Shown: positions 46,764-50,935 of the stretch, in pieces
How the letters are laid out: every line of letters begins with the position of its first letter
Position numbering within the stretch: the stretch's first letter is position 1
From: Agreia sp. Leaf210
GTDB lineage: Bacteria > Actinomycetota > Actinomycetes > Actinomycetales > Microbacteriaceae
Direction: 5' to 3'
DNA: 64,000 nt
Assembly: GCF_001421485.1 (NCBI RefSeq)
Contig: NZ_LMKK01000001.1
Location: 129,717 to 193,716, forward strand
The notes under the pieces: model-generated
Database searches by the model: none
What the model was told of the DNA's origin: nothing
What the model saw: only the letters and a program-made list of their open reading frames with translations
Program-made: the position numbers and the translations under genes

Positions 46764-46985
46764 ATGATCACCACACCCACGACATCAGCCGCATCTTTCA
46801 TCGCTCTGCGTCCGGGCTTCTGGCGAGTGGTTCATCCTGCGGGGCACGTCCTGGGCTACATAGAAGAGGCGCGAGCGGCCGGGGGACACCAGTTCACCGC
46901 CCGTCGCCTCGTGTCGAACACGACACGACTCGTCGACATCGGTGACTTCTGGTCTCTCGACAGCGCTCGGGCCTGTTTCGCGTAA
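46764..46985 (+). CDS. Small protein, unknown function
   Basis: A 73-residue protein with a good ribosome site ACAGGAG 5 bases before its ATG. The middle reads GHVLGYIEEARAAGGHQFTA (about 27-46), which could form a small beta-rich fold, and the end is FWSLDSARACFA. No signal, no membrane segment. Clean codon use and the ribosome site support that it is real. The family is not recognised. Confidence 0.65.
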   Translation: MITTPTTSAASFIALRPGFWRVVHPAGHVLGYIEEARAAGGHQFTARRLVSNTTRLVDIGDFWSLDSARACFA

Positions 46986-47061
46986 TCCGCAGATCACGAA
47001 TCGAACTCTCCTCGGCTCGTCGCACCGTCATGCCGTCGACCGACGACGTAGTCTTCGGCTC

Positions 47062-47871
47062 ATGGAATGGTGGAACAACATCGCAGACTGGTTCGCTTCG
47101 AGCAACGGGCGTTTCGTCGTGTCCGGCATCGTTCTGCCGGCAGTGGCGATCATCGTCGCCGCAATCGTCGGCGCATGGATCGCGAGCGGCTCGATCAAAC
47201 GGCTTCTGGCCAAACACGATCGAGAGCTCAAGGTGGCGGCGATCGCATCGCTGGTCGACTCCGCACAGCAGGCGTCCGTGTGGAATTCATTGACGCCGCA
47301 GGAGCAGATCATGTCCGACCGCGCGGTGGGTCAGGCCGATATCCAGATCCGTCTGCTGCCCATCAAGGGTGCTGCCGTCGCTGCCGACTGGGCTGCTCAC
47401 TCGCTCGCAGACATGCGCCGCAATTCGGCCACCTTCGGCTACGAGGTCGAGCCCGCGGTCATCGAATTCCGCGATCGTCTCATCGAATGGCAAGAACGTC
47501 CGGGCCGCAGCCGCAAGACCTTCCAATCCGATCTCGACCGCTGGAGCGTCGAGGACGAGGATGCCGAGAAGCACCTCGCTCGCCAGCAGGAGGCGTGGGT
47601 GGCGCAGCAGCACCACGAGCAGCACAGCCAGCCCGAGCTCGAGGCGACCACCGTCATCACCCCGGCGGCCGCCCCTGCCGTGGCTGCCGCGCCCGTCTCA
47701 TCCGTCGAATCGCCTGTCGAGACGCACGAACAGCGGGCGACCCGCGAGGAGACCCAGCGCGTTCTCGCGAACGTGAACGCGGTCCAGCGTCACGTGGAGT
47801 CCCGCGAAGACGGCGAGACGCCGCCCCCGATCAACGCGTTCCCGCCGCGTCGCGCATCCGAGAACGACTGA
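47062..47871 (+). CDS. Single-pass membrane protein with charged C-terminal tail, unknown function
   Basis: A 269-residue protein with one membrane segment (about 18-42) after a short Trp-rich N-terminus (MEWWNNIADWF). The rest is predicted cytosolic: a helical region (about 45-175) followed by a low-complexity Ala/Pro/Val/Gln linker and an Arg/Glu-rich end. ATG at 47062 is chosen because the upstream frame reads through the previous gap. It is convergent with the flavin electron-transfer operon, and its stop codon abuts the end of that operon. No family recognised. Confidence 0.7.
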   Translation: MEWWNNIADWFASSNGRFVVSGIVLPAVAIIVAAIVGAWIASGSIKRLLAKHDRELKVAAIASLVDSAQQASVWNSLTPQEQIMSDRAVGQADIQIRLLPIKGAAVAADWAAHSLADMRRNSATFGYEVEPAVIEFRDRLIEWQERPGRSRKTFQSDLDRWSVEDEDAEKHLARQQEAWVAQQHHEQHSQPELEATTVITPAAAPAVAAAPVSSVESPVETHEQRATREETQRVLANVNAVQRHVESREDGETPPPINAFPPRRASEND

Positions 47872-49377
47872 TCAATAGCCCGAGAACGCGTCGGTGACGA
47901 CGCGGCGCACGCGCAGGCGCTTCAGCTCGGAGCGGGCGGCGCCGACCAGGCGCGGCGGTCCCGAGACGAAGGCCGTCCTCTGCCGGGCGTCGGGCACATG
48001 CTGCTCGATCACGTCTTTCGTCAGACGCCCGGATCCCGCGTAGCTCCACCCCTCGGGCAGCTGCTCGGGTGCGGACGGCGCGAGAAGAACGACGCGCACT
48101 CCCAGCCGCTTCAACTCGTCGGCGTAGGCGAACTCCTCGTGCCCGCGGATGGCGTAGACGAGAACCAGGTCACGCTGCACGCCCTCGGCCGAGTCATGCT
48201 GCAGCTGGCTGATGAACGGTGTGATTCCGATTCCGCCCGCGACGAGCAGCACCGGTCGGTTCGGGTCCGAGGGCAGAAGGAAGTCGCCCGCGACCAGGTT
48301 CGCTCGCACGGATTGCGAGGGCTTCAACGAGGCCAGAGCCCGCTTGAAGCTCGAGGTCGACTCGCCCATCCGCACACCGAAGCGCACCTCGTGGGGGTTG
48401 CTCGGCGCCGACGCGATGCTGAACACGCGCCGGGTTCCCGACGAGTCGACGCCCGCGTGCGGGATCGACAGCTCCATGTACTGTCCGGCGCGGAACGAGA
48501 CCGGGTGCTTCGTCGAGAAGACGAATTCGGTCATCGACGGCGTGAGCTGGACCGAGCGCTCGAACGAGAGCGAAAGTCCACGACGCTGCCCTACAAGGAA
48601 GGCGAGCAGGTTGCCCACCACGAGGGCGAGCTCGGGGCTGCCGTGAATCGGACCGAACGAGAACGGGATAGAGAAGAGCAGCGCCACGACGGCCGCGAGA
48701 GCGATTCTCTGCCACAGTCGCGGTGGCAGCGTGAGCGGTTCGCTCAGCATGAAGCCGGCGAGGAAGATGAGCGGTGACGACCCGATCGCGTAGATCAGAG
48801 CGTCGGGCACCGTGAGGCCGAACGACGATTGGACGATGACCACGGCGACCGTGGCGATCCCGATGAAGGTGAGTCCCATGGGCAGCTGACGTGTGCGATA
48901 GAGCACGAGCAGCGCACCGATCGCGACGACGGGAAGCAGCACGGGCGTTCCGACCCACCACACCGATGCGTTGAGGCCGGTGAACCCGATGATCAGTGCG
49001 CCGACGGCGGCCGGGTTGAAGATATGACGCCGCCTCCAGGCGAGCACGTATTTCGACGCCACGGCGATGGCGGACACGAGCGCAACCGAGAGCAGGTCTG
49101 TTCCATCGGTCGTGGGAAAGAACAGGAAGAACAGCAGGAGCGCGGTGATGATCGACGACTCCGTGTGCGGCCTCACGCGGAACAGCAGGGCCATCACACG
49201 GTTGGCCACGACGCAGGAGACCAGCACGGTGGCCAGAGTCGCGAGCAGCGCGAGAGGCGGGAACCCCAGCACGCCGACGAGACTCTCGACGATCGCCACC
49301 AGAGCGATCGCCGCCAGCACGAGGCTGACGAGCCGGTACATCTGAAGCTTGCCCAGCAGGGCATCCAGTCGAGCCAT
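47872..49377 (-). CDS. RnfD/NqrB-like membrane domain fused to ferredoxin-NAD(P)H reductase domain
   Basis: A 501-residue fusion. Residues about 1-265 form roughly eight to ten membrane helices with RRRHIFNPAAVGALI (about 114-128), the sequence typical of RnfD/NqrB-family quinone or flavin membrane subunits. Residues about 275-501 form a ferredoxin-reductase-like module: FAD site FRAGQYMELSIP and RRVFSIASAP, NAD(P)H site VLLVAGGIGITPF (about 390-402), and the C-terminal DAFSGY. No flavinylation site SGAT is seen in the membrane part. It would move electrons from cytosolic NAD(P)H across the membrane. The start overlaps the apbE stop (TGATG), so translation is coupled. Confidence 0.88.
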   Translation of the reverse strand: MARLDALLGKLQMYRLVSLVLAAIALVAIVESLVGVLGFPPLALLATLATVLVSCVVANRVMALLFRVRPHTESSIITALLLFFLFFPTTDGTDLLSVALVSAIAVASKYVLAWRRRHIFNPAAVGALIIGFTGLNASVWWVGTPVLLPVVAIGALLVLYRTRQLPMGLTFIGIATVAVVIVQSSFGLTVPDALIYAIGSSPLIFLAGFMLSEPLTLPPRLWQRIALAAVVALLFSIPFSFGPIHGSPELALVVGNLLAFLVGQRRGLSLSFERSVQLTPSMTEFVFSTKHPVSFRAGQYMELSIPHAGVDSSGTRRVFSIASAPSNPHEVRFGVRMGESTSSFKRALASLKPSQSVRANLVAGDFLLPSDPNRPVLLVAGGIGITPFISQLQHDSAEGVQRDLVLVYAIRGHEEFAYADELKRLGVRVVLLAPSAPEQLPEGWSYAGSGRLTKDVIEQHVPDARQRTAFVSGPPRLVGAARSELKRLRVRRVVTDAFSGY

Positions 49378-50237
49378 CAGGAGAAGACCTCTCCCCGCAG
49401 TGTGCGGGATCGTTCGGCGATGCCGGAGGAGTGCATGCGCACCCAATCGAATTCGAAATGCTCGGCGAGCCGCGCGGGCTGCACGAAGAACAGGGCTGTG
49501 GCGAGCCCATCGGCCAGCAGGCCGGTGGGAGCGATCGCCCATGTGGCGATGATGTCGGAGGTCGGCGAGCCGGTGCGTCCGTCGAGAATATGGTGCAGAC
49601 CCGCTCCCCACACCCGGCGATTCGATCCGGATGCGCAGAGCGACTCGTTCTCGATGGTCACGACCCCGATCGCTTTGCTGGGGTCGAACGGATGCTCGAG
49701 GCCTACGCGGAGGGGCTCTCCCCTGCTCACCAGATCTCCACTGGCGTCGATGACGAAGTCCGTGATGTTTGACTGTCTGAGCACGTCGGCCACCAGATCG
49801 ACGAGGTAGCCCTTTCCGGCCGCTCCGACATCGATGACCGTGGGTTCCGTCGTAGTCACCGTGGTGCCGCTCCGGCTCACGGCCTCCGACCATCTGGTCG
49901 GCACGACTCGGCCCGCCTGAGCGGTGAGGCTGTACCGACTGTCGTAGCCGAGGTGCTCGAGGGAGCGGCCCACCAGCGGTGTCACCGCTCCCCCGCTGAT
50001 CTCGTCGAGCCTGTCGTAGAGGTCGAAGAGATCGGCCGAATCCGACGGGAACTCGACCGAGCCGGCCTCTCGTGCAAGAGACGTCACCAGGGAGTCGGAT
50101 CGGAACCGGGAGTACGCGCGATCGAACTCCTCGACCCGGCCTCGCACTCGCTCGGCGACCGCCTCGGGGAGGTCGTCGTCGGTGTCGATCTGCCAGGTCG
50201 TCCCGATTCCGGTGAAGCGGAGACTAGACGCCGGCAT
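49377..50237 (-). CDS. apbE: FAD:protein FMN transferase, ApbE family
   Basis: A 286-residue ApbE protein, the enzyme that uses FAD to attach FMN covalently to Ser or Thr of secreted or membrane redox proteins. The N-terminus RFTGIGTTWQID matches the family, as do YDRLDEISGGAVTPLVGRSLEHLGYD (residues about 78-103), IDVGAAGKGYLVDLVADVL, IDASGDLVSRG and the Mg-binding HHILDGRTGSP (about 215-225). No signal peptide is apparent, so it might act in the cytosol or be exported by another path. ATG at 50237 is preferred over 50261 because the domain begins there; it overlaps the FMN-binding lipoprotein gene by 14 bases. Confidence 0.92.
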   Translation of the reverse strand: MPASSLRFTGIGTTWQIDTDDDLPEAVAERVRGRVEEFDRAYSRFRSDSLVTSLAREAGSVEFPSDSADLFDLYDRLDEISGGAVTPLVGRSLEHLGYDSRYSLTAQAGRVVPTRWSEAVSRSGTTVTTTEPTVIDVGAAGKGYLVDLVADVLRQSNITDFVIDASGDLVSRGEPLRVGLEHPFDPSKAIGVVTIENESLCASGSNRRVWGAGLHHILDGRTGSPTSDIIATWAIAPTGLLADGLATALFFVQPARLAEHFEFDWVRMHSSGIAERSRTLRGEVFS

Positions 50238-50697
50238 CGGCCTTGATCTTGTCGACGGCATCGTTGAAACCGCCGCTGGTCAGCGAGGAACCGGCCACCT
50301 TCGACACCTTGAGCTCGTTGAGGCTCTTGCCCACGACCTCGGCGGCGATGCCATCGGCGAACTCGCCCTGGTACTTCTTGCCGTTGGGGTTGGTCGATTC
50401 GGGAGTGACGGTCACGGCGGTGACCTTGTCTCCGGCGAGAGTCAGCGAGACGCCGACGGTCTCTTTGCCACCGGGAGAGGTGTATTCGCCTTCGGCCTTG
50501 TACTCGCCGTCTTTATAGGCGGACGATCCGGCGGGGGCGGACGTGGCGGGGGCTGCGTCGCTCGTGCTCTGGAGTGTCGCGGCGGGAGTGCTGCCGGAGT
50601 CGGACGATCCTGCTCCGGTGGAGCAGCCGGTGACGACACCGAGAAGCGAGAGTCCGGCGAGGGCGGTGACAGCGGTTTTCTGGTGGCGGGTGATCAT
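50224..50697 (-). CDS. FMN_bind-like lipoprotein, probable ApbE substrate
   Basis: A 157-residue exported lipoprotein. The signal peptide ends in VVTGC with Cys25, followed by a Ser/Thr/Ala-rich linker (about 26-62). The mature part fits an FMN_bind domain: YKDGEYKAEGEYTSPGG (about 64-80), then VSLTLAGDKVTAVTV and the C-terminal AGSSLTSGGFNDAV (135-148), which aligns with the family's SGATxTSxAxxxAV flavin-attachment site but has Ser at the usual acceptor Thr. ATG at 50697 follows GGAGAG. It is the first gene of the operon with apbE and the RnfD-reductase fusion. Confidence 0.82.
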   Translation of the reverse strand: MITRHQKTAVTALAGLSLLGVVTGCSTGAGSSDSGSTPAATLQSTSDAAPATSAPAGSSAYKDGEYKAEGEYTSPGGKETVGVSLTLAGDKVTAVTVTPESTNPNGKKYQGEFADGIAAEVVGKSLNELKVSKVAGSSLTSGGFNDAVDKIKADAGV

Positions 50698-50740
50698 GGT
50701 TCTCTCCATCAGTCGGGATGCGTACTGGCAAGTTAGTACG

Positions 50741-50754
50741 CCTATGACCATAGG
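50741..50754. promoter_or_regulatory. Short inverted repeat upstream of the flavin operon
   Basis: CCTATGACCATAGG: six-base arms around AC, 44-57 bases before the lipoprotein start. On the minus strand it lies just upstream of a TACTAA (-10-like) sequence, so it could be an operator overlapping the promoter. Confidence 0.4.
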
Positions 50755-50800
50755 GGCGTCACTGCTGCAAGTACTTGGGAGGAACTGTGGAAACACTGGG

Positions 50801-50822
50801 AATAGTTGAAGCGACAACTATT
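50801..50822. promoter_or_regulatory. 8-6-8 inverted repeat, candidate redox-MarR operator
   Basis: AATAGTTG-AAGCGA-CAACTATT is a perfect dyad. Its inner 18 bases agree at 15 positions with the RosR operator consensus of Corynebacterium (TTGTTGAYRYRTCAACWA), a peroxide-sensing MarR-type repressor that controls flavin-related genes. It lies 104-125 bases before the FMN_bind lipoprotein start and 41 bases beyond the tRNA-Arg 3' end. The regulator is inferred. Confidence 0.5.
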
Positions 50823-50862
50823 GAGGGCTTCTCATCGTCATTCGACACGAAGCGTAGTGGAG

Positions 50863-50935
50863 TGCCCCCGGTAGGAATCGAACCTACGACCAAGAGATTA
50901 GAAGGCTCTTGCTCTATCCACTGAGCTACGGAGGC
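50863..50935 (-). tRNA. tRNA-Arg (UCU)
   Basis: Read on the minus strand: acceptor GCCTCCG pairs with CGGGGGC (one G-U). The anticodon loop CTTCTAA gives UCU; the anticodon stem AGAGC/TCTCT has a C-U mismatch at its loop end. The T arm is GTAGG-TTCGATT-CCTAC. CCA is not encoded. Confidence 0.9.

Follow-up and report, generated by a model that had tools for sequence, protein, structure and literature searches.

A three-gene operon on the minus strand of Agreia sp. Leaf210 contig NZ_LMKK01000001.1 probably encodes a self-contained transmembrane electron-transfer unit of the NQR/RNF-like type, which would carry electrons from NAD(P)H to a lipoprotein that bears flavin mononucleotide (FMN) on the outer face of the membrane; we put the probability of this reading at about 0.75. 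The operon lies in a 64,000-nucleotide stretch (positions 129,717 to 193,716 of the contig), referred to here as the window, whose own numbering is used throughout. The electron path had been proposed in an earlier interpretation made from the letters of the window (the sequence-only reading), and it is not new, as it has already been published for NQR/RNF-like systems. Within this published kind of system, the main interest lies in the compartment in which FMN is attached and in a putative serine-containing attachment site.

Organization and conservation of the operon

The operon contains the following genes, domains and site:

50224..50697, minus strand: FMN_bind lipoprotein of 157 amino acids, with signal MITRHQKTAVTALAGLSLLGVVTGC ending in a lipobox (reading frame, lipobox, PF04205)
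50275..50295, minus strand: flavinylation-like site A-G-S-S-L-T-S (SSLxSxGF in 77 of 77 relatives; weak line-up with SGAT-x-TS of PDB 8p2a)
49377..50237 (alternative start 50261), minus strand: ApbE flavin transferase of 286 amino acids with no visible export signal (PF02424, kept residues, hydropathy)
47872..49377, minus strand: 501-amino-acid fusion of an NqrB/RnfD-like membrane domain with a flavin adenine dinucleotide (FAD)/NAD(P)H reductase (Pfam, hhalign, structural model, Foldseek, loop charges)
48589..49341, minus strand: membrane domain of the fusion (hhalign with RsxD, model, loop charges, N-terminus inside)
47875..48576, minus strand: FAD- and NAD(P)H-binding reductase domain of the fusion (PF00175, Foldseek)

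The genes run in the order lipoprotein, ApbE, membrane-reductase fusion, and their ends overlap: the ApbE gene shares 14 nucleotides with the 3' end of the lipoprotein gene if it begins at 50237, where AAGG precedes the start, or 38 nucleotides if it begins at 50261, and one base is common to the ApbE stop codon and the fusion start codon (TGATG). The lipoprotein start is placed at the ATG at 50697, with GGAGAG ahead of it, and its lipobox reads VVTGC, with the Cys codon at 50623-50625. The three overlapping minus-strand genes of the sequence-only reading were recovered with these coordinates, overlaps and Pfam domains; its operon end at 50822 lies 125 bases beyond the likely start codon, and the three-gene content itself stands.

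Conservation was analyzed in a named set of 80 relatives kept from at least 534, which by record title are mainly Microbacteriaceae and Arthrobacter. The gene order is kept in 77 of the 80, the remaining three matches lying at contig ends; the window fusion shares 92-94% identity with the protein of three Agreia records and 84% with that of two more, and the trio is kept in other genera at about 50% identity. Each lipoprotein in the named set is accompanied by an ApbE gene, and no single open reading frame joining the two was seen in the 80 loci. Among 150 genomes of the family, a protein search found a near-complete fusion (E 2.2e-69 or better) in 64, with the match split into two pieces in one of them (G122), and a profile search found the lipoprotein domain in the same 64; ApbE occurs in all 64 and in 47 of the other 86. 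Across the phylum, a near full-length fusion is present in 8 of 396 genomes, a count that takes in the window genome and two more from its family. The window genome (3.54 Mb searched for extra copies and partners) has one ApbE, matches the lipoprotein profile once and gives no match to PF04205 above threshold. The recurrence of the trio elsewhere, proposed earlier as a check on the sequence-only reading, was thus found, and chance adjacency of the three genes was ruled out by this conservation and by the identical distribution of fusion and lipoprotein. Because the unit is very small and present in 64 of the 150 family genomes, it offers a tractable model for transmembrane electron transfer.

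Two side observations concern the wider set. In L119-L140, from one distant family and some others, a separate frame of ~230-275 amino acids matches the reductase half alone, and the membrane-domain profile finds no partner for it within 1.5 kb on either side. Trios like those of Arthrobacter or Microbacteriaceae also occur on contigs titled Vibrio cholerae (L105, WNZI01000018.1), Saccharibacteria metagenome-assembled genome and Acidobacteria metagenome-assembled genome (L092, L096), which perhaps reflect contamination or misbinning.

Predicted proteins and electron path

The reductase half of the fusion matches NAD_binding_1 (PF00175) with 43.3 bits against a Pfam cut-off of 22, and the membrane half aligns with E. 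coli RsxD in hhalign (probability 80.5, E 1.3e-5), leaving RsxD residues about 135-213, including its S-Q-A-T, without a counterpart in the window domain. The Thr of this S-Q-A-T, Thr187, carries the FMN of RsxD. PF03116 (NQR2_RnfD_RnfE) matches 15 of 32 aligned fusion proteins at E<=1, with a best value of 5.9e-8. The AlphaFold2 model used for the fusion and its membrane domain has a mean pLDDT of 87.2 and a pTM of 0.77; its best Foldseek match is 5ogx (E 7e-16), NqrF 7qty is matched with E 1.1e-13, and the best 50 of 1256 matches are reductases or reductase-containing proteins, among them GcoB, the SpNOX dehydrogenase domain and NqrF. The family matches to PF03116, the RsxD alignment and PF00175 bear out the earlier proposal that an RnfD/NqrB-like membrane domain is fused to a reductase, and the reductase domain is placed in the cytosol because positive charge alternates between the loops joining the membrane helices, with the N-terminus inside.

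For the lipoprotein, a signal and lipobox in the window, a lipobox found by pattern in 75 of 77 relatives and PF04205 matches in 33 of 35 aligned domains at E<=1 support the exported FMN_bind-like lipoprotein of the sequence-only reading (signals were judged by eye, pattern and hydropathy). The predicted ApbE matches PF02424 with 141 bits, over the cut-off, and Ser211, His224, Asp251 and Thr255 (numbered from the 50261 start) are invariant in eight aligned proteins, E. coli ApbE included, which supports the FMN transferase function assigned earlier to this gene. Ser211 and His224 presumably have the catalytic roles, and Asp251 and Thr255 are assumed to bind metal. Catalytic roles of a Ser and a His are known for V. 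cholerae ApbE (PMC12052999).

In the mechanism proposed from these assignments, the cytosolic reductase domain would transfer hydride from NAD(P)H onto FAD, and electrons would cross the NqrB/RnfD-like membrane domain, probably by way of a non-covalently held flavin. They would then reach the FMN that ApbE attaches covalently to the lipoprotein, on the membrane's outer face, from which an extracytosolic acceptor would be reduced. Domain content, gene arrangement, topology, co-inheritance and the lack of PF02508 partners can be read from the sequence; flavin occupancy, the direction of flow and the acceptor are inferred.

Published NQR/RNF-like systems amount to 127 clusters, mainly from Actinobacteria and the candidate phyla radiation (Méheust 2021 PMC8238504; Huang 2024 PMC11334425). 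They are described as a fusion of PF03116 with PF00175 that passes electrons in one direction, with NAD(P)H as donor and an extracytosolic FMN subunit as recipient (PMC8238504, PMC11334425), and the same two-subunit architecture is given by Huang 2024 (PMC11334425). As far as these descriptions go, the window operon is alike in its two subunits with apbE, its NqrB/RnfD-type domain fused to a PF00175 reductase, its extracytosolic FMN_bind subunit, its membrane domain without a flavinylation site and its host, Actinobacteria being a main host group. It differs in that its membrane and FMN_bind domains score too low for the Pfam models defining that class, its attachment site reads S-S-L and not SGAT, and an ApbE signal is not visible, the published clusters having been compared by description only. 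The PF03116 match and RsxD alignment assign the family, and not the window protein by itself, to this class, and the lipoprotein supplies the FMN_bind or ApbE gene with a signal or lipidation site that such a cluster contains.

The membrane domain and the NqrF-like reductase fold also relate the unit to Rnf (E. coli RsxD/RsxG) and Na+-NQR (NqrB/NqrC/NqrF). Unlike these complexes, the unit has its reductase fused to the membrane domain, nothing that corresponds to RsxD 135-213, and no PF02508 subunit encoded in its genome. PF02508 (RnfA/RnfE/NqrD/NqrE) gave 0 matches in the window genome, and the control matched in 4 of 14 genomes; the earlier statement that the unit has no Rnf or Nqr partners holds to this extent, the search having been confined to PF02508. 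An Rnf or Nqr complex in the window genome was rejected on the same result, other subunits not having been searched for.

Several results weigh against reading the operon as a coupled unit of this type. PF03116 has no match in the window fusion itself at E<=1, below the curated cut-off, and the best 50 of 1256 Foldseek matches include no chain of NqrB or RnfD, the fold query not being limited to the membrane half. The window lipoprotein scores 19.5 bits as a whole and 21.5 bits as a trimmed domain against PF04205, under the cut-off of 22, and its hhalign comparison with RsxG failed (probability 0.3). Tight coupling of lipoprotein and ApbE is also not universal, because a gap of ~2.4 kb in L077 and of ~2.6 kb in L247 separates the lipoprotein gene from the ApbE gene downstream of it.

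A putative serine-containing attachment site

All 77 relatives with the trio, a set that includes close kin and so is not one of independent sequences, contain S-S-L-[T or A]-S-x-G-F in the lipoprotein, preceded by G in 74 and by S in three. Both serines are invariant; the later Thr is not essential, because one relative has Ala there. The window lipoprotein reads S-K-V-A-G-S-S where the canonical motif would be D-x-x-[ST]-G-A-[ST]. Over the 77 relatives the D position holds S (41), D (26), T (7), G (2) or E (1), the [ST] position A (63), S (8) or G (6), the G position G (74) or S (3), and the A position S in every case. Alignment with PDB 8p2a, a weak match (E 0.13), sets the second serine (codon 50284-50286) on the acceptor position. 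Since the canonical site is replaced by one with two invariant serines, the acceptor residue is likely a serine, the second Ser of A-G-S-S-L-T-S. A-G-S-S-L-T-A is the reading in L247, which belongs to a different family within the class. In L113, where the lipoprotein gene at first seemed to be absent, a wider stretch placed it further upstream, with the site A-G-S-S-L-T-A.

In a class sample made of the best locus from each of 30 of the 42 genomes with an FMN_bind match, 28 of the 30 genes have SGAT-like sites (24 SGAT, 3 GGAT, 1 SGAS) and two have no pattern match. In L116 and L117, two of the eight phylum genomes with the fusion and both from one distant family, a nearby FMN_bind gene keeps TGAT or SGAT. 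Because these loci combine such a site with the same fusion, the S-S-L site may have arisen later, in the present branch.

Up to three positions of the window-type site depart from D-x-x-[ST]-G-A-[ST], and Ser was the poorer acceptor in tests described in an ApbE review, two points that count against the proposed reading; the same review reports that replacing the Asp has little effect and that changing the Gly or Ala about halves flavinylation (PMC12052999). The contrast between a non-canonical site in all 77 relatives and SGAT-like sites in 28 of 30 class genes would also suit a lipoprotein that is not covalently flavinylated, holding flavin loosely or having some other role, with ApbE serving another target or acting as an FAD pyrophosphatase. 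We consider this improbable in view of the two invariant serines, the ApbE gene found with every lipoprotein of the named set, and a genome in which ApbE occurs once and nothing elsewhere reaches the PF04205 threshold. If serine is indeed the acceptor, the S-S-L site widens the motif by which flavinylated proteins can be sought.

Tat export of the window-type lipoprotein was considered and rejected: among the 75 relatives with a lipobox, 12 have RR at 15-30 residues ahead of the Cys, several of these upstream of the likely start, and six have KR. Sec export is favored because RR and KR are rare ahead of the lipobox Cys.

The compartment of flavin attachment

The predicted ApbE of the window has no N-terminal export signal that can be recognized: 17 residues precede its conserved GIGT, with a peak hydropathy of -0.09, compared with 1.99 for the E. 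coli ApbE signal. Over the 77 loci, the median peak hydropathy is -0.17 upstream of the ApbE domain versus 1.93 for the lipoprotein signals, up to 60 residues being read with start codons ignored and the ApbE median coming from the 62 loci with at least 15 residues (15 were shorter). Two loci, L061 (1.98) and L075 (1.65), exceed 1.6 in this test and count against the pattern. In 18 of the 77 loci the ApbE domain begins 8 nucleotides past the lipoprotein stop codon.

The same pattern is seen in the ApbEs sampled from the class Actinomycetes, where ApbE was found in 63 of 98 sampled genomes. In none of 30 class ApbE loci (L173-L202) can a hydrophobic N-terminus be reached from a start codon, compared with 21 of 30 loci in the phylum's other classes, a contrast showing that such stretches are detectable by the test. 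Of the 98 genomes, 42 have an FMN_bind match, and each of these 42 also has ApbE. When up to 120 residues ahead of the domain are read and start codons are ignored, 26 of 30 class FMN_bind genes have a hydrophobic stretch; the ApbEs beside these genes (L203-L232 loci) have a hydrophobic N-terminus in 0 of 20 cases. All these calls of export signals use hydropathy only. By eye, class FMN_bind proteins often begin with MRR or VRR before the hydrophobic stretch. Because this N-terminus is frequent, Tat export of pre-loaded FMN_bind proteins is possible elsewhere in the class.

A signal-less ApbE set against an exported target puts the place of flavin attachment in question. On the predicted proteins, the picture of extracytosolic flavinylation does not fit, because the ApbE has no visible export signal; this feature and the non-canonical motif were both missed in the sequence-only reading. 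Chances are about even that the ApbE of this operon acts in the cytosol and modifies the serine of the S-S-L site before the lipoprotein is exported by Sec or while export is under way. Somewhat more tentatively, cytosolic ApbE may be the rule throughout the Actinomycetes, with FMN loaded inside and then carried out, here by Sec, and with the attachment point moved from the SGAT threonine to the S-S-L serine in this lineage.

The same electron path could also operate with flavinylation outside the cell, if ApbE left by an unrecognized route, either non-classical or together with the lipoprotein. Such an arrangement would agree with a review in which characterized ApbEs are mostly exported and a truncated cytosolic ApbE failed to complement a knockout (PMC12052999), and with work on Listeria in which ApbE is treated as extracytosolic and in need of exported FAD (PMC9973259). 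It appears unlikely to us, given 0 of 30 class ApbEs and 0 of 20 beside FMN_bind genes with a hydrophobic N-terminus and the 18 of 77 loci in which the ApbE domain starts 8 nucleotides after the lipoprotein stop. Cytosolic ApbEs are themselves known, one in Klebsiella that serves a soluble fumarate reductase and others in trypanosomatids (PMC12052999), and extracellular flavin transferases have been invoked for two proteins, one of them from Streptomyces (PMC10339131). A literature search, in which supplements were not covered, found in the available texts no report that exported proteins of this class are served by an ApbE lacking a signal.

The lack of a signal on ApbE points to a gap in the accepted account, in which FMN is attached outside and FAD export is required. 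If flavin is indeed loaded inside across the class, then Sec lets chains through that bear flavin, or else ApbE has its own, unfamiliar way out of the cell; cytosolic loading would also do away with the need for an FAD exporter, against the extracytosolic flavinylation model derived from Gram-negative bacteria and Listeria.

MsrQ-like clusters of Actinobacteria are, by their published description, alike in that apbE is accompanied by an FMN_bind gene and in many cases by an NAD-binding domain (PMC8238504), and a signal-less ApbE was found in 20 of 20 class loci beside FMN_bind genes, where the presence of MsrQ was not checked. They differ in having heme-binding MsrQ in place of NqrB/RnfD, and the class FMN_bind genes differ in their SGAT-like sites (28 of 30).

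Electron acceptor and direction of flow

Neighboring genes were surveyed in 70 of the 80 loci with a crude gene caller, which saw ApbE in 44 of the 70 and the lipoprotein in 45. No neighbor gene is widely conserved: the most frequent family, an ABC-type ATPase, is found at 22 of the 70 loci, its distance from the trio varying, on which ground a conserved partner gene as acceptor was rejected. Because no partner gene is widely conserved nearby, the acceptor of the unit is most likely small and general, such as ferric iron, a quinone or an oxidant. An argS-lysA-hom-thr stretch is common to Arthrobacter-type loci (17-19 loci), and neighbors differ between genera.

FNR-type domains are generally reversible, which would allow the lipoprotein to take electrons from an external reductant and the fusion to reduce NAD(P)+. 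Inward flow nevertheless seems very improbable, as no reductant-producing partner is widely conserved nearby and the published model, as described, runs outward (PMC8238504).

Upstream region and neighboring features

Two features lie ahead of the operon:

50801..50822, no strand assigned: inverted repeat AATAGTTG-N6-CAACTATT, a possible operator upstream of the operon
50862-50935: tRNA-Arg (tct), just upstream of the operon

The palindrome core, TAGTTG-N6-CAACTA, is kept in the window and five Agreia relatives; the remaining 72 of the 77 upstream regions gave no match, so that in the named set it is confined to Agreia loci. A RosR-like operator was considered and not retained: the palindrome would resemble the C. 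glutamicum RosR site, a likeness that was not confirmed in the literature. The sole other exact copy in the genome (L245, 3741-3758) lies just before a gene for a SnoaL-like lipoprotein, and it is possible that one regulator serves both this gene and the operon. This second copy may be due to chance, because the reversed control pattern is commoner (eight places in the genome with one mismatch allowed, versus three for the palindrome). A further pattern scan led nowhere (95 and 102 matches versus 82 and 75 for the control), and a promoter scan gave no promoter and two terminator-like sites inside genes versus 1.2 expected.

The tRNA-Arg (tct) gene is upstream in the window and two Agreia loci, and a tRNA-Arg (ccg) gene is downstream in seven Arthrobacter-type loci; 24 of the 35 loci scanned have no tRNA of any kind, and linkage to the operon was treated as coincidence. 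On the plus strand, a 309-amino-acid frame at 46942-47871, with no Pfam match at E<=0.01, lies tail to tail with the fusion gene and ends one base before its stop codon.

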